Part shown: in pieces, positions 1-60,987 of the stretch | How positions within the stretch are numbered: position 1 is the first letter of the stretch | Layout of the letters: every line of letters starts with the position of its first letter | Source of the DNA: Verrucomicrobiales bacterium | GTDB taxonomy: Bacteria > Verrucomicrobiota > Verrucomicrobiia > Limisphaerales > UBA9464 | Direction: 5' to 3' | Assembly: GCA_027488845.1 (NCBI GenBank) | Contig: JAIYBC010000045.1 | Coordinates: 1 to 60,987 of the forward strand | Length of the DNA stretch: 60,987 bases | Made by a program: the position numbers and the translations under genes | Notes under the pieces: model-generated | Seen by the model: the letters and a program-made list of their open reading frames with translations, nothing else | Databases searched by the model: none | Told to the model about the DNA's origin: nothing

Positions 1-57
1 CACGCGCCAGCTCTTCCCCAGTCCCAACAACTGCCCAAACGTCTCCTCGGGTGTCAT
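1..57 (-). CDS. Possible transposase N-terminus (ISL3-like), cut by window edge
   Basis: Reading leftward from the ATG at 57-55, the frame stays open to the window edge and encodes 19 residues beginning MTPEETFGQLLGLGKSWRV. From memory, this resembles the first residues of ISL3-type transposases of Verrucomicrobiota (a short helix, then an LGL-x-x-x-W-x-V pattern). Only the extreme N-terminus is inside the window, so the family call is tentative. If right, an insertion sequence abuts the cassette array to its right. The bases between it and the first attC-like site (58-143) carry no recognisable gene. Confidence 0.35.
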   Translation of the reverse strand, partial: MTPEETFGQLLGLGKSWRV

Positions 58-143
58 CGCCCGTCATCATCCTCCGCCCGTCAAGCCCCCCCGGTTCCAC
101 TGGAATCAGCGAGGAACCAGAATTTGATGGAGGAAGCGACGAT

Positions 144-236
144 GCGTAAAAAGACGCTCCCACGAACCCGGCGGGAGCGTTCTCGTTGCAATCCAGGCGT
201 TTGGAGCGCCGGATCGCTGAGCTTTCGACGTCGAGA
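144..236 (+). other. attC-like recombination site A (93 bp)
   Basis: This is one of three 93-bp elements (here, 1065-1157 and 1724-1816) that align end to end without gaps. All share the block GCGAACCCGGCG-GAGCG or a close variant about 20 bp in, and end near GCTTTCGACG or equivalent. Each sits between short same-strand genes, as attC sites do in integron cassette arrays. In this copy the outer boxes (GCGTAAA and GTCGAGA) depart from the consensus RYYYAAC/GTTRRRY, so it may be a decayed site. Confidence 0.55.
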
Positions 237-242
237 CAAAGC

Positions 243-671
243 ATGACCCGGGAAAGATCATTCGTTGAAGCTGAGGTCGTCCTGCTATCGAAAGAAGAAG
301 GAGGCCGAAGCACGCCAGCATTACCGGTAGCGTATGGCGGCGGCATGCGTCCCCACATCGTTCTTCAAGATCGCTCCGTCCGTAAGGCGAAGGTTGGCAT
401 GCGCGACGGTCATCCGAATACGATTCTCGATGAGTATCTGGGCGTCGAGTTTTGGAGCGGCCCCGACCCCATACCCGTGAGCAGCGCATTTTTGCTGACG
501 ATGCGTTTATCGTATCATCCGGCTCCAATGTATGACAGCTGTGTTCCAGGCGCGACTTTCACCATCCGTGAGGGCGGCAGGATTACCGGTCACGGTGAGA
601 TCAAGCGACGCTGGATCGAAAAAGAGCCTGACCAGGCGCAACAGCCAACGACCGCAGCCGGTCGTGGCTGA
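243..671 (+). CDS. Stand-alone EF-Tu domain III-like protein
   Basis: The 142-residue product resembles only the C-terminal beta-barrel (domain III) of elongation factor Tu. Residues 15-22 read LSKEEGGR, and residues 106-120 (FTIREGGRITGHGEI) match the EF-Tu end motif that normally reads FAIREGGRTVGAGVV. There is no GTPase domain or P-loop, so it cannot be an elongation factor by itself. In EF-Tu this domain contacts aminoacyl-tRNA and EF-Ts; what the isolated domain does is unknown. I chose the ATG at 243 because the longer in-frame start at 186 would place 19 codons inside the attC-like site, whereas 243 is seven bases beyond it, as in typical cassettes. Confidence 0.7.
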   Translation: MTRERSFVEAEVVLLSKEEGGRSTPALPVAYGGGMRPHIVLQDRSVRKAKVGMRDGHPNTILDEYLGVEFWSGPDPIPVSSAFLLTMRLSYHPAPMYDSCVPGATFTIREGGRITGHGEIKRRWIEKEPDQAQQPTTAAGRG

Positions 672-701
672 TCTGAATCGTCCAGGCGGCAACACAACAT
701 C

Positions 702-1055
702 ATGAGCAGCATCACACTCAACCTTGTAGTTCTTAGGTCTACTGATGTAGCTCGTGCAGCTGCTTTCTACACGCGACTGGGATTGCACCTTTTAAAACAT
801 CGGCACGGTAGCGGCCCGGAGCATTTTGCCGCCGAATTGCCCGGCGGCGTTTTCGAATTGTATCCGCTGTCTCCGGAGGGGCCATCCACACTTGGGACGC
901 GGATAGGATTTCGGGTTCCGTCGGTTGATGCCGCGATAGCGGCGTTGAGCGATTACCCGAGCGCGGTTGTCACTTCCCCCAGGGATTCCGAATGGGGGCG
1001 CAGAGCAGTTGTTGCAGACCCGGATGGCCATCGAGTTGAACTCTTGCAGTCATGA
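702..1055 (+). CDS. VOC family protein (glyoxalase/bleomycin-resistance fold)
   Basis: This 117-residue protein has the paired beta-alpha-beta-beta-beta modules of the vicinal oxygen chelate fold. The N-terminal module contains DVARAAAFYTRLGL, and the C-terminus ends ADPDGHRVELLQS, the classic last strand carrying a metal-ligand glutamate. Family members include glyoxalases, dioxygenases and drug-binding resistance proteins; the substrate cannot be told from sequence. It lies 30 bp downstream of the EF-Tu-like gene with no attC-like site between them, so the two appear to share one cassette. Confidence 0.8.
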   Translation: MSSITLNLVVLRSTDVARAAAFYTRLGLHLLKHRHGSGPEHFAAELPGGVFELYPLSPEGPSTLGTRIGFRVPSVDAAIAALSDYPSAVVTSPRDSEWGRRAVVADPDGHRVELLQS

Positions 1056-1064
1056 CGATCTTGC

Positions 1065-1157
1065 GCCTAATGTGACGCGCGAGCGAACCCGGCGTGAGCG
1101 TCGCGGTCTTGAGCTAAGCTTTTCGGCGCCGCTGTCGCTGAACTTTCCACATTAGAC
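1065..1157 (+). other. attC-like recombination site B (93 bp)
   Basis: This copy begins GCCTAAT and ends ATTAGAC. These correspond to R'' (RYYYAAC) and R' (GTTRRRY) with the innermost C:G pair replaced by T:A, so base pairing between the boxes is kept at that position. The internal AGCG/CGCT pairing expected of the L boxes is present. The site starts ten bases after the VOC stop codon and ends eleven bases before the next ATG, the normal placement in a cassette array. Confidence 0.7.
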
Positions 1158-1168
1158 GACTTCGCACA

Positions 1169-1729
1169 ATGACTTTCAGCAAAGCGCATAAAACCAGCCT
1201 CTGTGTGGGGTTGGTTCGTACTGGATATCATCCAGACGAGGTCGAGGGGGTGATTCAGAAGCTTTCATCATGTTGGTGCCTGGTTGCGAGCTTAGACTCT
1301 CTCGATTCCGATGGATACTGGATCATCAGACGAGATACCATTCTCAATGTGAGATACACGCGTATCGAGGCATTCCGTCATCGTATCCTACTCGCAAATG
1401 GCGCGACTTCCCGACTTCGACTTCTTCGCGGTATCGACATCACTACGACGGACAGCCTCATGGCCTCTTTAGTGAGCCAGCGCCGTTATGCGATCATATA
1501 CCGAGATACCGATACAGAATGGTGGAGCTTGCACGCCGCCATTCTCCGGCAGGAGCGATCAGATCTTCTGCTTCACGGCTTTGACGGAGCCGGCCGTTTC
1601 GAGTCCCGCGTTCGCCGCTACCCCATCGCTCAAATTAACTGTATCCGCCTCGGTAGCCGCTACCTCCGCGAGTATCAGTCTGCAGTCCCTTATGATTACG
1701 ACATGCAATCCCCTGTCCCCGTCGCCTAA
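1169..1729 (+). CDS. Cassette-encoded protein of unknown function
   Basis: The 186-residue protein is not recognised. It is predicted soluble with many beta strands, including a segment GYWIIRRDTILNVRYT near residues 49-64 and aromatic-rich EWWSLHAAIL near residues 117-126. There are no transmembrane segments and no signal peptide. The ATG lies eleven bases after attC-like site B, and the stop at 1727-1729 falls inside the R'' box of site C. A coding end overlapping R'' is typical of integron cassettes. A small RNA-binding beta-barrel (Sm-like) fold is a guess only. Confidence 0.75.
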   Translation: MTFSKAHKTSLCVGLVRTGYHPDEVEGVIQKLSSCWCLVASLDSLDSDGYWIIRRDTILNVRYTRIEAFRHRILLANGATSRLRLLRGIDITTTDSLMASLVSQRRYAIIYRDTDTEWWSLHAAILRQERSDLLLHGFDGAGRFESRVRRYPIAQINCIRLGSRYLREYQSAVPYDYDMQSPVPVA

Positions 1730-1816
1730 CCAGGCGCCCCAGCGAACCCGGCGGGAGCGTTGTCGTTGCAATTCAACCGTTCGGAGCGCTGGCTCGCGGA
1801 GCTTCCGACGTTAGGC
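1724..1816 (+). other. attC recombination site C (93 bp, best preserved)
   Basis: The site begins GCCTAAC and ends GTTAGGC. Both are exact matches to the integron attC core boxes RYYYAAC and GTTRRRY, and they are perfect reverse complements of each other. CCAGCG (1739-1744) can pair with CGCTGG (1787-1792), as the L boxes do. The centre holds the block shared with sites A and B. The cassette gene upstream ends within the R'' box. Confidence 0.8.
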
Positions 1817-1828
1817 TTCCAGCCGCAT

Positions 1829-1960
1829 ATGGACAATACTCCGCCAATCCTGTCACCGCCAGTGGTTGCTAGGCGGCATTCACGTGACAGATTTCAGGGA
1901 CATGGCCACAGTGGAATCCTGATGGATCTGAAAACGATTGCCGAATCACCTGCAAAGTAG
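1829..1960 (+). CDS. Short cassette ORF, possibly truncated
   Basis: A 43-codon frame opens twelve bases after attC site C with MDNTPPILSPPVV. A proline-rich start of this kind is common on small verrucomicrobial membrane proteins, but nothing membrane-like follows and the frame ends after ILMDLKTIAESPAK. It could be the beginning of a cassette gene broken by a frameshift or deletion. It could also be a non-coding leader to the next gene, which begins eleven bases later. Confidence 0.3.
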   Translation: MDNTPPILSPPVVARRHSRDRFQGHGHSGILMDLKTIAESPAK

Positions 1961-1970
1961 TTCCTGAGTC

Positions 1971-2402
1971 ATGGCATACAACGAACAACTTGCCAAACGC
2001 ATCCGCGACTTCTTGGGCGATGCCCGCGTCCGCGTGGAGGAGAAACGCATGATGGGCGGGTTGTGTTTCATGGTGAACGGAAAGATGTGTGTGGGAGTGG
2101 AAAAGGATCGCCTGATGGTGCGCCTGGATCCCGAAGAATATGAATCGGCCCTGCGACGCAAGGGTTGCGTATCGATGGATTTCACGGGGAGACCGCTGCG
2201 TGGTTTCGTTTTTGTCAAACTGGTAGAGCTGTCAACGGACGATGCATTGAACGGTTGGCTCAAGCTGGCCTTGGAGTTCAATCCCAAGGCGAAGTGCTCG
2301 AAGAAGAAGTCAACTCCAGCTTCACCAATGCAAGCACGCTTGGGGGCTGCTGGTTTTCCCCTCAAGCGGTCTCTTCAACATTCCACAAAATCAGGTCTAT
2401 GA
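1971..2402 (+). CDS. TfoX/Sxy N-terminal domain protein
   Basis: The first ~110 residues match the TfoX N-terminal domain. There is an N-terminal helix (LAKRIRDFLGDARVRVEEKRMMGG), then the typical strand FMVNGKMCVGVEKDRLMVRL, and an end of the kind GWLKLALEFNP. TfoX/Sxy proteins activate competence genes in Gammaproteobacteria, but stand-alone N-domains are widespread and of unknown role. The last ~30 residues look unrelated to the family and may come from a frame-altering change. The stop TGA overlaps the next gene's ATG (ATGA at 2399-2402), implying translational coupling. Confidence 0.75.
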   Translation: MAYNEQLAKRIRDFLGDARVRVEEKRMMGGLCFMVNGKMCVGVEKDRLMVRLDPEEYESALRRKGCVSMDFTGRPLRGFVFVKLVELSTDDALNGWLKLALEFNPKAKCSKKKSTPASPMQARLGAAGFPLKRSLQHSTKSGL

Positions 2403-2803
2403 AAAAACAGATCCTCGCTGTTCTGGCCTACTTGCTGCCCACTTTCCCTCTGGGCTATTTCTGGCATCTCACGATCTTTGCCGACTATTACAAGTCGCTC
2501 CACGTTTACCGCGACGACATCTTCATCCCGTTTGGAATCCTCTCGATGCTGATTCAAGGCGTGATCTGGTCGGTGCTGTATCGAAAGATGTTTGCTGGGG
2601 AACCGATCTTGAGGGGGGCAATCAAATTCGCCACTTTGGCGTGTCCGCTTGCGTGGAGCTTCATGGTGTTGGCCACTTCCGCGAAGCATCACATGTCCTC
2701 GATACAAGGATACGTCGGCATTGAAACGTGCTTCATGCTCGTCCATTACACCATCGTCAGCCCGCTCATTGAAGCGGTGTATGCCAAGAACCCAAGAAGC
2801 TGA
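2399..2803 (+). CDS. Small integral membrane protein, function unknown
   Basis: This 134-residue protein has about four hydrophobic helices: ILAVLAYLLPTFPLGYFW, IPFGILSMLIQGVIWSVLY, FATLACPLAWSFMVLA and a final one near FMLVHYTIVSPLIEAVY. I know similar four-helix proteins only as uncharacterised membrane proteins. The start chosen (2399) overlaps the TfoX-like stop by four bases; upstream in-frame codons lie wholly within the TfoX gene and are a shadow. Confidence 0.65.
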   Translation: MKKQILAVLAYLLPTFPLGYFWHLTIFADYYKSLHVYRDDIFIPFGILSMLIQGVIWSVLYRKMFAGEPILRGAIKFATLACPLAWSFMVLATSAKHHMSSIQGYVGIETCFMLVHYTIVSPLIEAVYAKNPRS

Positions 2804-3188
2804 CCGGATGCCCGGTCCGGTTTGAAATTGGATTCTTGCGGACGGCGCAGAATTCCGCCCAGCGCATCCTTGATGACTGCCGGAATATCCGCGACAGCAT
2901 TTCCGGAGGCCCGATTCCTGGCACTTCGGCAGCGTGGAAACCCATACCGCGGCCGGGAATTGCCCGCGGAGATCCGACGACGGCTCCCATCGAAACCAGC
3001 AACTACCGCAGGTGACGCTTTCGCCTTCTCAGGCCGGACCCCAGCACCCTGAGGTCACTCTCGGAATCTGGAGGAGATTCCATTTCACCTTCGATGGGCT
3101 TAACGGATCCTGCGCCTAGGGGATCTGTCCCCAACGGAAGCCATTCGAAGGCTCGCGGTCCTTGGCGGCGAACGGCTAGACTCAGCGC
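2804..3188. other. Intergenic region holding a decayed antitoxin and a short hairpin
   Basis: The 385 bases contain no intact gene. A perfect short hairpin GACCGG-ATGC-CCGGTC follows the membrane-protein stop (about 2803-2818) but lacks a T tract. From about 2907 to 3050 the sequence resembles the 3' end of the antitoxin gene at 10750-11007 (listed separately). GGGGA-TCTG-TCCCC at 3119-3132 is a second weak hairpin ahead of the kinase gene. Confidence 0.5.
2822..3052 (+). pseudogene. Remnant of a short antitoxin-like gene
   Basis: Its translation contains RQRGNPYRGRELPAEIRRRL, then PSKPATTAGDA. That is plainly homologous to RQQRGNPARGRELLAEIRQR-IPSRPGASTGDA at the C-terminus of the antitoxin-like protein at 10750-11007. 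The first ~28 codons here bear no resemblance to that protein's DNA-binding half, and no PIN gene lies upstream, so this is probably a decayed toxin-antitoxin copy. A degenerate version of the repeat found after the intact antitoxin also follows this copy. Confidence 0.6.
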
Positions 3189-4946
3189 ATGGACCGACCG
3201 TCCAACCGGCCCCGCGTCACCCGTGGCCCAGTGTCCGGGGTGTGGTTCGGCCTCGCCGGTTTGGTGATTACGGCGCTTCTGACGGCCATGATCTGGCGTG
3301 ACGCGGTGCAGCACGACGAGGAGCGGTTGGCCGTGCTGACGGAACAGCTTTGGCAGGAATTGGAGACCCGCGTCGAAAGCTACGAGCGCGAACTCAGCCA
3401 GTTGGCGGAATGGTTTGCAGGGCGGACGCAGGTCACCGGTGTCGAGTGGGAGAACCGCGTCGAAAGGATGAAGCTGCCGGTGAACTTCCCCGCCCTGACC
3501 GAAGTGCTGTTCGCCGAGACCATTCGCCCTCCGAAGGAGTCGGAGCAACCACCGGACCCTGCCGACCTGAACGGCAACCGGGCGATGATCCACCGCGGCT
3601 GGGATTTCGAGGTACGCCTGACGGCGGTGCGCTCCTTGGGGGCCACGCCGGATGGGACCATCCCTCGCCTGAGCCTTGATCCACCCCAGGCGGGTCGCCG
3701 CCTGATGGCGGAGCTGGATCCCGAACGGTTGAACCAGATCGGGGGCAACCTCAGCGTCAGGTCGACCCGCCGGCGCCTCATCGAGCCCGGCGGGTCGGCC
3801 GCGGTGCCCGCGTTCACCCTGTTTGCTGGGATTCACGACCGTTCGATGCCGGCGGCCTCGGCCATCGATGAACCCTCCTTTGACCGATGGCACGGACTGC
3901 GCAACCTGCGACGTCTCGAATCGCTGCGGGGTGTCGTGGCGGGAACGGTCGCAACGGGCCCATTGGTTGAATCCATTTTCGGCGACCGAAGATTGGAGGC
4001 GGACTTCGACCTGTATGCGGGCGAATTGGTGGAGACCAACCGACTCACCCGGCAGATGCAGGCGCCCGTGGCTCCCCGGCGCGGTCTCGGGGTGACGAAA
4101 GAGGTGCGCTGGTATGGTGACCGGTGGCATTTCGTGACCGCACCCAACGACCGATTCTTCTTCGGCTCGCGACGTTTCCGCGCCGGGCTTGTCGCGATCG
4201 CAGGCACGCTGCTCAGCCTTCTGCTCGCGGGTTTCGTCCACACACAGACCCGCGCCCGGGCGGCGGCCGAGGCCTGGAGCCGCGAACTGGAGGAGGCCCG
4301 CGAACAATTGCGGACCGCCCACAGCGAACGTGAGCAGTTCGGCCGCAACCTGCACGACGGCGTTCTCCAATCCCTCTACGCCGCCGTGCTCAGCCTGCGG
4401 CGCGCCGGTCGCGCCACGGCGGTGGACCCAGGTCGGGCAGGCGTGCTGATCGAGGGCGTGGTCTCCGACCTCGAGGAATCCATGCAGACCATCCGCGGTT
4501 TCCTGACCAACGCGCCGGCCGGGCAGATCGCCGCCGTCGACCTGCCCGCCCAGTTGCGTGGCTATGTGGACGCCTGCCGGCGCATGGCCTTGGCCGAGGT
4601 TTCGATTTCGGGAGATCCTGTCGTCCTCACGCAACTGCACGGCGATCACGCGGAGCAGGTGCTCCTGCTGGTGAAGGAGGCGGTCAGCAACGCCCATCGT
4701 CACGGCCAGGCGGCCCACATCGAAATCCGCTGCGAGCGCGTCGGCTCCGCACTCCAGCTCACGGTTTCCGACGACGGCCGTGGATTCGTGCCGGACAACG
4801 TCACCGGCCCCGGCTATGGTCTGCGCTCGATGCGGGAGCGGATGGAACATTGCGGCGGCCGGCTGGGAGTGGACTCGCGGCCCGGCGGACCGACCACGGT
4901 CCGCGCCACCGTGCCGCTGCGACCCGAGAAGCGGACGGATGCATGA
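3189..4946 (+). CDS. Membrane sensor histidine kinase (NarL-type partner, HisKA_3)
   Basis: The 585-residue protein has a first membrane helix near residues 17-36, an extracytoplasmic sensor region of about 290 residues (CHASE-like, beginning with a coiled segment), and a second helix near 333-352. A short coiled coil leads to a HisKA_3 domain with phospho-acceptor His389 in NLHDGVLQSLY. A HATPase_c domain follows, with the N box near residue 500 (EAVSNAHRHG) and G boxes DDGRGF and GYGLRSMRERM. It would autophosphorylate and pass phosphate to the regulator encoded immediately downstream, whose ATG overlaps this stop (ATGA). The ligand is unknown. Confidence 0.9.
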   Translation: MDRPSNRPRVTRGPVSGVWFGLAGLVITALLTAMIWRDAVQHDEERLAVLTEQLWQELETRVESYERELSQLAEWFAGRTQVTGVEWENRVERMKLPVNFPALTEVLFAETIRPPKESEQPPDPADLNGNRAMIHRGWDFEVRLTAVRSLGATPDGTIPRLSLDPPQAGRRLMAELDPERLNQIGGNLSVRSTRRRLIEPGGSAAVPAFTLFAGIHDRSMPAASAIDEPSFDRWHGLRNLRRLESLRGVVAGTVATGPLVESIFGDRRLEADFDLYAGELVETNRLTRQMQAPVAPRRGLGVTKEVRWYGDRWHFVTAPNDRFFFGSRRFRAGLVAIAGTLLSLLLAGFVHTQTRARAAAEAWSRELEEAREQLRTAHSEREQFGRNLHDGVLQSLYAAVLSLRRAGRATAVDPGRAGVLIEGVVSDLEESMQTIRGFLTNAPAGQIAAVDLPAQLRGYVDACRRMALAEVSISGDPVVLTQLHGDHAEQVLLLVKEAVSNAHRHGQAAHIEIRCERVGSALQLTVSDDGRGFVPDNVTGPGYGLRSMRERMEHCGGRLGVDSRPGGPTTVRATVPLRPEKRTDA

Positions 4947-33862: not shown

Positions 33863-34027
33863 TTCATCCGCAGATGTCGCAGAGGCACGCAGATGGCTTC
33901 GCTGGAGCGCCAAAGACTTCGCCGGTAGTTGGACTCCGCCCCCTCACCAACCGCTGTCCGCCGGCCAAGCACCAACACACGAATCCCCTCGGCTCCGCCC
34001 ATCTGCGGACATCTGTTTCATCTGTGG
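33863..34027. repeat. MITE-like 'CGCAGATG' repeat, copy 1
   Basis: The unit opens with CATCCGCAGATGTCGCAGAGG and closes with CCATCTGCGGACATCTG plus CATCTGTGG, so its ends are inverted repeats built from the CGCAGATG word. The middle (GGCTTCGCTGGAGC, GTTGGACTCCGCCCC) recurs in copy 2 at 34073-34238. Confidence 0.7.
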
Positions 34028-34072
34028 ACGTCTCAGCCCCACTGAATCAGGAATCCACGAAGGGGGAGCCTA

Positions 34073-34238
34073 TCCACAGATGTCGTAGAGGTGCGCAGAT
34101 GGCTTCGCTGGAGCACCAAAGGCGTCGCCATCGGTTGGACTCCGCCCCTTCGCCAAACGCTGTCCGAAGGCGAAGTTCCAACACCTGAATCCACTCCGCT
34201 CCGCCCATCTGCGGACATCTGCGTCATCTGCGGATGTT
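34073..34238. repeat. MITE-like 'CGCAGATG' repeat, copy 2
   Basis: An imperfect direct copy of 33863-34027 that opens TATCCACAGATGTCGTAGAGG and ends TCTGCGTCATCTGCGGATG. A shorter relative with the same ends lies at about 56505-56590. Confidence 0.7.
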
Positions 34239-56684: not shown

Positions 56685-58214
<1,530 letters not shown>

Positions 58215-58576
58215 AGGATGGGGATGATCGTGGTTCGACCGGCCCGAACCTGTCGAGCGCGTCCTCCCCACAGAAAACTGAAAACGTGTGAGCCATGCCA
58301 CCGAGACACGGAGGACACGGAGCTGCCCCGACACGCAACGCTTCACGCTGAACCGAAGCGGAGTTCACAAGTCAGGGTGCCAAGGGTGCGAAGCCCCTCT
58401 GAGGTACGGAGTCCCGGCTTCAGCCGGCGGAAACCATCTCGACCCGAACACCTCAGAACCCCTCAAGACAAATCCTAAGACGCCAGTTCCACGTGTCCCT
58501 GCCACGTGTTCCCGCTGGCTGAGGCTAGACCGGGCTGGACCGCTTGATGACCAAGCAGTACCATATTCAAAATTCC
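58215..58576. other. Intergenic region with REP-like and dispersed repeats
   Basis: The 362-bp gap carries a 'CCACCGAGACACGGAGG' unit (about 58296-58312) and a REP-like copy (about 58398-58437), but no gene. The sequence becomes visibly richer in A/T towards 58576. Confidence 0.6.
58398..58437 (-). repeat. REP-like palindromic repeat, copy 3
   Basis: In reverse orientation to the copies near 10 kb: GGTACGGAGTCCCGGC then TTCAGCCGGCGGAAACC. It is preceded by GTGCCAAGGGTGCGAAGCCCC, the same lead-in as the copy at 59870, so the repeat unit is longer than the hairpin alone. Confidence 0.75.
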
Positions 58577-58750
58577 ATGATTCGCCTATTTCAATTCACA
58601 TACCCTGAAAATTCAAATTGTGATGTGGGAATTGATGGCGCCTTTGTTTACAGACTTCCCGGAATCAAGTGCAACACCTGTAATCGCACAATTGACAATT
58701 CGTCCGCCTCGGAACCCACTAGGGACACGTCCGTCCTCGGAACCCACTAG
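58577..58750 (+). pseudogene. Truncated double-CXXC immunity-type gene
   Basis: The first ~44 codons (MIRLFQFTYPENSNCDVGID, RLPGIKCNTCNR, then SSAS) are a close paralogue of the intact gene at 58943-59671 (MIRLFQFTYSTTVNCGAGID, RLPSIKCQSCNR, SSAS). Resemblance ends exactly where a tandem 28-bp repeat begins at 58707, and the frame closes at 58750. The remaining three quarters are missing. Confidence 0.75.
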
Positions 58751-58762
58751 GGACACGTCCGT
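58707..58762. repeat. Tandem 28-bp repeat (two perfect copies)
   Basis: Two identical 28-base units (58707-58734 and 58735-58762) contain AACCCACTAGGGACACGTCC. The GGGACACGTCC word occurs again at about 59684 and 60810, and its complement-like GTGTCCCC at 59764, 60007 and 60877. It marks the breakpoint in the truncated gene. Confidence 0.85.
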
Positions 58763-58942: not shown

Positions 58943-59671
58943 ATGATTCGTTTGTTTCAGTTTACATATTCCACAACCGTGAATTGCGGAGCGGGAATTG
59001 ACGGGCAGTTTCAATATCGACTCCCATCGATCAAGTGTCAGTCCTGTAACCGATCACTGACATTCTCTTCCGCATCGTGCCCATGTCCGAGTAATCTGTG
59101 CGATTGGCCAGTCAACCCAAAGTCGCTATCCCGTGAAGAGTTTGAAGTTCAGGCTCAGTCCGCAGGCTGGAATCAGGAATTTCAGAAAATCGGTGTCTCA
59201 GTTCTGCCAGGTATGTACTTTGGCGAGTTTAGGGGTACCGTGACTAGCAAACCCGTTGAACTTTTGTGGCTCACGCCTGACCAATGCTTCTTGTCACCCG
59301 CAGTGCTGGAAGAATCGATGAGGGCTGGGCTAGGCATTGAAGCATTTCCTGCGAGAATATGCTCCAGGCGCAAGGATATCGGATATTCCACGCTGCACGC
59401 CCGCCCCCGCAGGTTGATTCATCCTTTGGATTATAGCAGCGGGAGAAAGTGGCATTACTGTGATGCTTGCAAATGGTATAGGCCCGACTGGTATGGAAGC
59501 CTAGATCTGACAGATATTCCAATTGATGGCAATGCCTGGGTGAGTTATGGAGTTCACATTTCACGGGTCCTAGAGTTGAGCGACTTTATCGTCGTTGACG
59601 AGGAGTTTAAGCTTTGGTTCGAACAGCGCTTTCCCAATGCTGCAGAGTTTCTTGAGTTGAAGGTTGTATGA
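58943..59671 (+). CDS. Double-CXXC protein, probable SitI6-family immunity protein
   Basis: The 242-residue protein has an early CXXC (CQSC in PSIKCQSCNRS) and a later one (CDAC in WHYCDACKWYRPDW), with WFEQRFPNAAEFLEL at the end. This layout fits the double-CXXCG family first noted as Myxococcus paralogues and later linked to SitI6-type immunity. The metal or redox role of the cysteines is unknown. No toxin gene is visible nearby. Base composition is clearly more A/T-rich than the chromosome core. Confidence 0.7.
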   Translation: MIRLFQFTYSTTVNCGAGIDGQFQYRLPSIKCQSCNRSLTFSSASCPCPSNLCDWPVNPKSLSREEFEVQAQSAGWNQEFQKIGVSVLPGMYFGEFRGTVTSKPVELLWLTPDQCFLSPAVLEESMRAGLGIEAFPARICSRRKDIGYSTLHARPRRLIHPLDYSSGRKWHYCDACKWYRPDWYGSLDLTDIPIDGNAWVSYGVHISRVLELSDFIVVDEEFKLWFEQRFPNAAEFLELKVV

Positions 59672-59674
59672 CTC

Positions 59675-59875
59675 TGCCCCTAAGGGACACGTCCATAGGA
59701 AACAGTCCATAGGAAACAGATTCGGAAAGCGCTGGCAAGCTGGCCGTTAGAACTTTAGGAGAACGTGTCCCCGGTGCCCCCTCACAGTTCCCGCTGAGAA
59801 ATATCTCCCGCAGAGACGCAGAGACGCAGAGAGGCTTACAACCAAGGGTGCCAAGGGTGCGAATCCCCTCTGAGG
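59675..59875. repeat. ~200-bp direct repeat, copy 1
   Basis: From TGCCCCTAAGGGACACG to CCCCTCTGAGG this matches 60801-60987 with few differences, the main one being a 15-base internal duplication (GTCCATAGGAAACAG) in this copy. It includes GCAGAGACGCAGAGACGCAG and GGGTGCCAAGGGTGC. Together the two copies bracket the SMI1/KNR4-like gene. Confidence 0.85.
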
Positions 59876-59909
59876 TACGGAGTCCCGGCTTCAGCCGGCG
59901 GAAACCGTC
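59870..59909 (-). repeat. REP-like palindromic repeat, copy 4
   Basis: GGTACGGAGTCCCGGC plus TTCAGCCGGCGGAAACC, same orientation and lead-in as the copy at 58398. It directly abuts the end of the direct repeat. Confidence 0.75.
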
Positions 59910-60086
59910 CTTATCTGACCACCTCGGAATCCACCAAAAGTAGCCCGTAGAAGACAACTTCAGGAGACTCACGCACTCGAGTGCATAGACCAGCATATTG
60001 TCCAAGCGACGTGTCCCCAGTGGCTGGGAGCCGAGACACGAGGCATCGCTGACGTCCTCGGAGATTTCCAGAGACTAGCCACGGCA

Positions 60087-60773
60087 TCAGCCTTCAATTC
60101 CCAGCGCTTTCTGCAGACCCTGCGCCTTATCCGTCTCTGGATCGAGTAGCCCATCGTCATTCAGGAAGTTCTCGATCATCCAAGACTCGGGCCCTACATA
60201 GCCGACACGCGCCCAAGCAGAGAGAAAGCTGGTGAAGCTTTCAGCAACAATCTTGCTCTCATCGTCGTGCGACAAGTAAACGACGGCAGGATCATCGGAT
60301 GGACTCCTGGAGTCGAGTCCCAGGAAGTCTCCGTTGTCCATCCGTAGTATCGGAAACGATTGAATCCAAAAGGCGAAGTCGTCCGGATTCTCGGCCACCC
60401 ATGTCTCTTCCGCCCAACTCTTACAGTCGGCGAGCCATCCAGCAAATTCCGTGGCTTTGCAAAATTCACCTCCACCAAAAAGCCAGGGTTCTCCTCCTAG
60501 AGCGGACACAACAGCTTCCGCCTGACTGCCGGTAGGAATCCACTTATAACGAAACACGAATCCTCCGGAGGCATGCTGGAGGAAGGCACGTAGAGCAGCA
60601 GGCATAGGCAACCGGAGACTCGAAGCTATGGAGTCCAATGTGTCAGCAGGAATAGGGGGAAGCTGAATGGCTTCGGATTCGACTCTGCCAGTCAGTTGTT
60701 TGGGCAGACGTTCCAGGAACTGCCGGGCGGTTTGGGGCCATTCTTGAAATTTGTACGCGTTGGCTTGTGGCAT
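60087..60773 (-). CDS. SMI1/KNR4 family protein (possible immunity protein)
   Basis: The 228-residue protein has the SMI1/KNR4 layout: LPPIPADTLDSIASSLRLPMP, ALRAFLQHASGGFVF, then WLFGGGEFCKATEFAGW and FWIQSFPILRMDNGDFLGLD. The end is PAVVYLSHDDES followed by a helical stretch. Bacterial members often serve as immunity proteins against polymorphic toxins (SUKH superfamily). No toxin gene adjoins it within the window. It is bracketed by direct repeats, consistent with a mobile cargo. Confidence 0.8.
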   Translation of the reverse strand: MPQANAYKFQEWPQTARQFLERLPKQLTGRVESEAIQLPPIPADTLDSIASSLRLPMPAALRAFLQHASGGFVFRYKWIPTGSQAEAVVSALGGEPWLFGGGEFCKATEFAGWLADCKSWAEETWVAENPDDFAFWIQSFPILRMDNGDFLGLDSRSPSDDPAVVYLSHDDESKIVAESFTSFLSAWARVGYVGPESWMIENFLNDDGLLDPETDKAQGLQKALGIEG

Positions 60774-60800
60774 AGGCGGTGATGTGCCCCCAAGGCATAA

Positions 60801-60987
60801 TGCCCCTAAGGGACACGTCCATAGGAAACAGATTTGGAAAGCGCTGGCAAGCTGGCCGTTAGAACTTCAGGAGAACGTGTCCCCGGTGCCCCCTCTCAGT
60901 TCCCGCTGAGAAACATCTCCCGCAGAGACGCCGAGACGCAGAGAGGCTTACAACCAAGGGTGCCAAGGGTACGAAGCCCCTCTGAGG
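60801..60987. repeat. ~200-bp direct repeat, copy 2, reaching the window edge
   Basis: This matches 59675-59875 and continues to the last base of the window, so it is probably incomplete here. It lacks the 15-base internal duplication. The bases 60774-60800 between it and the SMI1-like start show nothing recognisable. Confidence 0.85.

Follow-up and report, generated by a model that had tools for sequence, protein, structure and literature searches.

A SUKH-1 gene between direct repeats in a Verrucomicrobiales genome: a small immunity-type array probably edited by recombination at dispersed repeats

The ways in which genomes acquire and lose single orphan immunity genes are, in our judgement, poorly explained. 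The window analysed here comprises 60,987 nucleotides of a Verrucomicrobiales bacterium and is the complete contig C39 of the source genome assembly (G000). Near its right end lies a candidate gene of this kind, and close relatives show states of the same site with and without the gene, together with repeats that would produce such a change. Fifty-nine relatives, G000 counted, were compared.

A first-pass annotation of the window had described a reverse-strand immunity-type gene bracketed by near-identical direct repeats of about 200 bp, the right copy reaching the window edge. The arrangement is real (Table 1), and the edge is the end of contig C39. Comparison of 59705-59875 with 60817-60987 revealed direct repeats of 171 nt, ungapped and 96% identical, which is far beyond chance, and a 31-nt block is shared at 100% identity between 59675-59705 and 60801-60831. 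As the window is a whole contig, the right copy (R2) is cut off at the contig edge. The final 96 bases of C39 were found to be exactly the first 96 bases of the reverse-complemented contig C34, including the bases specific to the right copy. When followed across this overlap, the pair extended over 59698-60024 and 60811-61136 (window frame) with 95.1% identity over 327 positions; the repeat is therefore about 327 bp long and the earlier estimate of its length was too short. The C39-C34 join is based on the 96-bp overlap and on the gene arrangement in the congener G013, described below. A partial third copy of the inner part of the repeat, IG0, had been overlooked by the first-pass annotation; it is 77% identical to 59816-59956 over 141 nt, and its core (58374-58435) is 98% identical to the left copy (R1) over 62 bp.

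Table 1. Features of the right end of the window (positions in the window frame)
Feature	Position	Strand	Remarks
Xylulokinase gene	56685..58217	-	TIGR01312 XylB, E 5e-167; left flank common to the congeners
IG0, partial third copy of the inner part of the repeat	58345..58485	+	Xylulokinase side
CXXCG gene, truncated copy (N-terminal 47 residues only)	58577..58717	+	31/47 identical to residues 1-47 of the intact gene; ends beside the first TIR motif
TIR motifs, two in tandem	58722..58760	+	28 bp apart
Gmx_para_CXXCG gene (PF09535), intact, 242 aa	58943..59671	+	E 2e-08, 34.2 bits, cut-off 25
R1, left direct-repeat copy	59675..60024	+	TIR motifs at 59684 (+), 59761 (-) and 60007 (-); inner part homologous to IG0
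SUKH-1 (SMI1/KNR4) gene, 228 aa	60087..60773	-	PF09346, E 1e-11, 45.9 bits, cut-off 25.4, profile 1-124 of 125
R2, right direct-repeat copy	60801..60987	+	Cut by the contig end, runs on C34 to window-frame 61136; TIR motifs at 60810 (+) and 60873 (-)

In a fragmented assembly, two such copies might be collapsed or mis-joined versions of one repeat, and it would agree with this that the right copy lies at a contig end and that other contigs also end in repeats. We nevertheless hold an artefact to be very improbable, since 5% of positions differ between R1 and R2, the two copies have different right-hand neighbours, the variants peculiar to R2 recur on C34, and the link from xylulokinase to the C34 gene is found independently in G013.

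R1 and R2 are dispersed intergenic repeats combined with the GGGGACACGTCC-type motif. The inner part of the repeat is built from dispersed units, with at least 47 genome matches to 59600-60987 (window counted; 40 of 73 candidates scored). Among the matches listed, the full repeat unit was present in only two copies, both beside the SUKH gene. CGCAGAGACGCAGAG and GTCCCGGCTTCAGCCGGCGGAA units of the repeat were seen scattered in G000 and in the congeners G005, G012 and G013.

From left to right, the region reads xylulokinase, IG0, truncated CXXCG, two motifs, intact CXXCG, R1, SUKH and R2, followed by the genes of C34. The SUKH protein passed the curated cut-off of SUKH-1 (PF09346) along the domain and is the sole PF09346 (SMI1_KNR4) match in G000; judging by its family, it is likely encoded by a toxin-immunity gene. 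The intact CXXCG protein passed the curated cut-off of Gmx_para_CXXCG (PF09535) and had zero NCBIfam matches; by association, this gene would also be of immunity type. No toxin gene was identified among the immediate neighbours of the SUKH and CXXCG genes. Reading past 60987, as the first-pass annotation had proposed, found that the array continues on C34. Three more small ORFs (152, 142 and 87 aa), set apart from one another by related motifs of the GGGACAYGTCC type, come before larger genes. The 152-aa and 142-aa proteins matched zero Pfam families.

Tandem immunity genes, SUKH genes included and usually without toxin genes, form the polyimmunity loci (Zhang et al. 2012, PMC3482391). The window is similar in having tandem immunity-type genes including SUKH and no toxin gene identified beside them: it holds the SUKH gene, the CXXCG gene and the truncated CXXCG copy, and, of the three further small genes, the two that were scanned are without a Pfam family. 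It differs from the polyimmunity loci in having just two intact immunity-type genes and long direct repeats around SUKH; the portion of PMC3482391 drawn on here describes no repeats between the genes of such loci. A literature search on immunity genes with direct repeats found none.

In the order, the SUKH protein was found in three of 293 genomes, namely G000, G168 (43% identity) and G116 (42%, with one internal stop codon). Among named genomes, 43 pattern-matching stretches were obtained, of which 0 were confirmed as SUKH relatives. In contig C90 of G168 (L155, 5958-9147), a SUKH gene and a CXXCG gene overlap, sharing four bases. An ORF of 501 aa scored 25 bits for PF09535, which is just the cut-off, and 19.4 bits for PF09346, below the cut-off of 25.4; SUKH and CXXCG may thus be fused in this ORF. 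From the overlap and the double match it follows that the two immunity-type families of the window also adjoin in a distant relative. Proteins combining a SUKH-like match with another immunity-type match are a further likeness to polyimmunity loci, going by the part of that study used here (PMC3482391).

Genomic comparison found that three congeners align to the window as far as 58456-58461, which is inside IG0: G013 at 97%, G012 at 94% and G005 at 92%. In contig C247 of G013, xylulokinase is followed by one copy of the inner part of the repeat and then by the 152-aa gene of C34, and a segment of 2,583 bp with the CXXCG and SUKH genes is extra in G000. When IG0 and R2 of G000 were joined in silico, the product aligned with G013 at 1,001 of 1,001 positions, 959 of them identical (95.8%) and with no gaps, whereas the alignments of the unjoined G000 sides stopped at 678 and 459. 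In G012 and G005, the xylulokinase repeat leads instead to a 142-aa lipoprotein-like gene, with DNA 79-82% identical to that of G000. There are thus three gene orders among these four genomes, and the SUKH gene was not found at this locus in G005, G012 or G013. The first-pass annotation had proposed a comparison of strains for presence or absence of the gene, and both states were indeed encountered, with a single-repeat state lacking the gene in G013 and another gene order in G012 and G005.

The flanks are 96.4-96.6% identical between G000 and G013, and R1 and R2 are 95.1% identical to each other. As the identity of the pair is no higher than that of the flanks, the repeats were not freshly made, and a loss in G013 and a gain in G000 are equally possible. 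The G012 and G005 loci are not simple deletions, because the 142-aa gene is 79-82% identical where the flank is 90-96% identical. The first-pass annotation had also held that recombination between the repeats would delete or duplicate the gene. The gene-less single-repeat state of G013 fits this proposal, whether it arose by loss in G013 or the gene was gained in G000.

The same differences could be taken as passive debris, the site being an intergenic dumping ground in which the repeats have no causal part and the congeners differ by unrelated insertions and deletions. The dispersal of the repeat sub-units would fit this, as would the truncated CXXCG copy, read as decay, and the fact that G012 and G005 differ from G000 at the site in more than one way. 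The state of G013, an exact product of IG0 and R2 along its whole ungapped length, argues against it, and we regard this reading as distinctly unlikely.

The reading that we favour, and think probable, is that the locus is a small array of the polyimmunity type, in which recombination at the repeats edits the gene content. The SUKH gene would be one of the units of this short and rapidly changing array, which is made up of immunity-type genes and unknown small genes at a single intergenic site. The borders of the units would be dispersed intergenic repeats and the TIR motifs of a TIRYT-type element, in which inverted GGGGACACGTCC-type ends enclose a Y1/HUH transposase gene. Homologous recombination, the presumed agent, would remove whole units by acting between the direct copies IG0, R1 and R2, and entry of repeat-bearing DNA followed by recombination would add them; the repeats would serve as portable homology and the immunity-type genes as cargo. 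Turnover of this kind would be expected to depend on recA. The immunity function of the genes is a prediction from their families, and the sequence of the relative G013 supports the recombination idea for what appears to be a fast-changing immunity-type array with repeats of a TIRYT-linked kind. Circular or excised forms were not observed.

The motif GGGACACGTCC stands at the ends of the repeats. Counted as a single exact 11-mer, it has 60 copies in G000 (reversed-pattern control 0), 45 in G012 (control 1), 27 in G013 (control 3) and 17 in G005 (control 2), and 0-2 copies in the other 15 congeners; elsewhere in the family, G027 has 12 copies (control 1) and G033 has 11 (control 0). Around the 11-mer, the stretch from about -5 to +24 is conserved in the 52 G000 sites with full context, which gives an end-site consensus of about CMYTRGGGACACGTCCSTAGGCTACCGATT, some 30 bp long. 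Position -1 of GGGACACGTCC is G in 28, A in 22 and T in 2 of these 52 sites, and the 28 sites with G at -1 fit strictly the TIR consensus of TIRYT/TIRtron elements, GGGGWSAS, as given in the parts of PMC3733652 and PMC6006769 drawn on here.

An element with such ends was found in L092 (CAMASJ01), where inverted motifs at 102 (+) and 1615 (-), with 15 of 16 bases matching and A at -1 at both ends, flank a gene (397-1443) whose product is a Y1_Tnp protein of 348 aa (PF01797, 38.3 bits, cut-off 23, E 1.6e-9). The first 2,943 bases of L092 are identical to L163 of G012. This G012-type element has two features of TIRYT/TIRtron elements, a Y1_Tnp (HUH) gene and inverted repeats around it. A close Y1 transposase was found assembled only in G012 and G005; the best Y1 matches in G000 and G013 are 39-40% identical, and no Y1 transposase gene close to the G012 type was found in G013. 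In G000, the 3′ flank of the element was found at 12 contig ends, and five of the 23 contig ends compared break within the homologous terminal coding sequence of the element, those of C63, C18 and C36 (the last weak, E 0.37) at the N-terminus and both ends of C65 at the C-terminus; C27 carries a 47-residue internal transposase fragment, 281 bases in. Judging from these remnants, full copies of the element may be present in G000 and would explain the contig breaks at those ends, and the motif copies may have been spread by the transposase.

The sole Y1 transposase gene of G000 found by Pfam, on C12, was also considered as the partner of the motif and was rejected, as its flanks carry GGGGTCAG-type ends. 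This gene (L070, 3662-4636) is thus a second Y1 transposase gene besides that of the G012-type element, and its inverted GGGGTCAG-type ends fit GGGGWSAS as well. In C47 of G000 (L064, 175-640), fragments that resemble an IS630-type transposase gene alternate with motif copies, which would fit a nesting of elements. L092-L095 of CAMASJ01 are 93.7-94.2% identical in DNA to G000 over 2,409 and 2,013 bp, which is congener-like, and the title Akkermansia muciniphila looks wrong for them.

The element resembles the TIRYT/TIRtron elements in its Y1 (IS200-like) transposase gene between inverted ends fitting the consensus, and in the occurrence of the ends as singles, pairs and clusters in the genome; here the ends also lie near the borders of strain-variable genes, of which the portions of PMC3733652 and PMC6006769 used make no mention. 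The REPs of RAYT elements, which are also intergenic dispersed repeats tied to a Y1 transposase, have a GTAG or GTGG head followed by a GC-rich palindrome that folds (part of PMC2817692). The motif described here differs in not being a GTAG-headed GC-rich hairpin; as single-stranded DNA, six motif stretches folded no better than shuffles (z -0.67 to 1.81), and on this result the reading as a classical REP was rejected. In Pseudomonas, many strain-specific genes are placed in REP deserts by the section of PMC3390384 consulted, a pattern from which the loci compared here differ.

Gene content was found to differ between congeners beside the motif at other loci too. At the C65 locus, the place of the G000 ankyrin gene is taken in G013 by a gene of 227 aa, and homology stops 13 bp past one motif and restarts 18 bp before the next. 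The same locus is near-empty in G012, with 26 to 32 bp between the flanks; its two junctions are 8 and 41 bp away from a motif in G012, but in G000 these distances are 481 and 1,613 bp. Different genes lie between corresponding motifs in C69 of G000 and C204 of G013. A TPR gene is extra in C231 of G013 when compared with C29 of G000, where homology stops 9 bp past the motif and the other junction is 733 bp from it. Altogether, nine of 31 hand-listed breakpoints lay within 20 bp of a motif (8-18 bp away, none at the window locus) against a mean of 1.8 for random placement within 1 kb, with 0 of 5000 draws giving as many, and the median distance was 95 bp against 305 bp at random, both members of each pair being counted and the pairs being non-independent. 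As the loci were picked for holding a motif or a repeat, these figures are descriptive and suggestive only. Loci L152, whose stretch carries no motif, L153 and L154 were left off the list, as were six points at which a motif marks the end of the transposase element itself. The list derives from 17 comparisons, five of them without a shared block of at least 90 bp (L018 with two loci, L101-L092, L023-L092 and L073-L148), and L101 and L160 share only the element end.

These junctions bear on an alternative in which the TIRYT Y1 transposase itself moves genes, a gene between two TIR motifs being excised and inserted as a passenger cassette. Mobile insertion cassettes provide precedents for the movement of passenger genes, and IS200/IS605-type single-strand transposition is the precedent invoked for the enzyme. 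The C65 and C29 junctions, the genes swapped between motifs at C69 and the excess of breakpoints near motifs would fit such movement. However, the motifs that bound genes have no single consistent orientation, 22 of the 31 breakpoints, all nine of the window locus included, lie farther than 20 bp from a motif, no target duplication or circle was seen, and the poor folding of the motif stretches, the motif-based choice of loci and the pairing of breakpoints count against it as well. At the window locus, the homology to the congeners ends inside the dispersed repeat, 266 bp from the TIR motif on the left, and the TIR is therefore not the junction there. We consider this alternative unlikely. It would be a rather improbable extension that the TIRYT Y1 transposase constitutes a gene-cassette system, in which CMYTRGGGACACGTCCSTAGGCTACCGATT-like ends of about 30 bp flank individual accessory genes, including immunity genes, which the enzyme exchanges or removes one by one, an integron-like outcome without an integrase. 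Should the turnover near TIRYT ends at other loci be causal, such transposases would have a visible role in gene exchange, and in gene turnover the transposase may have some part.

Under the preferred reading, editing by recombination at repeats, the bracketing is not a dedicated device. In G000 or its congeners, the motif has not only immunity-type genes as neighbours but also ankyrin, WG-repeat, TPR and DUF1963 genes and unknown ones. With the sub-units dispersed and the motif beside many kinds of gene, the bracketing of the SUKH gene exemplifies a general process at repeats and is not a special immunity device, and the repeats are not dedicated to immunity genes. The idea of the first-pass annotation that recombination is a simple way to swap cargo accordingly stands as far as the sequence of G013 fits it, but not as a process specific to immunity genes. 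Wide dispersal of the repeat with no link to immunity genes had been named as what would tell against that idea; the sub-units and the motif are indeed dispersed beside varied genes, but among the matches listed the link of the full unit to the SUKH gene holds.

Single genes separated by repeated sites are also characteristic of integron gene cassettes. The locus is like them in its single genes between repeated sites, with an attC-like array at the start of the same window, and unlike them in that R1, R2 and the TIR motif, inspected by eye, lack GCCTAAC...GTTAGGC ends. At the contig start, repeats were observed at 1065-1157 and 1724-1816 and, in a degenerate third copy, at 144-231. They are spaced by 921 and 659 bp, and small ORFs lie in the intervals. 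GCCTAA starts the copies at 1065 and 1724, and the latter ends with GTTAGGC. By the attC signature, these repeats presumably represent an integron attC-like cassette array; the attC-core pattern scan covered window positions 1-3600. Further into the window, a 166-nt tandem pair (33866-34031 and 34072-34237), 84% identical, was found with ATCTGCGGACATCTG-type units.
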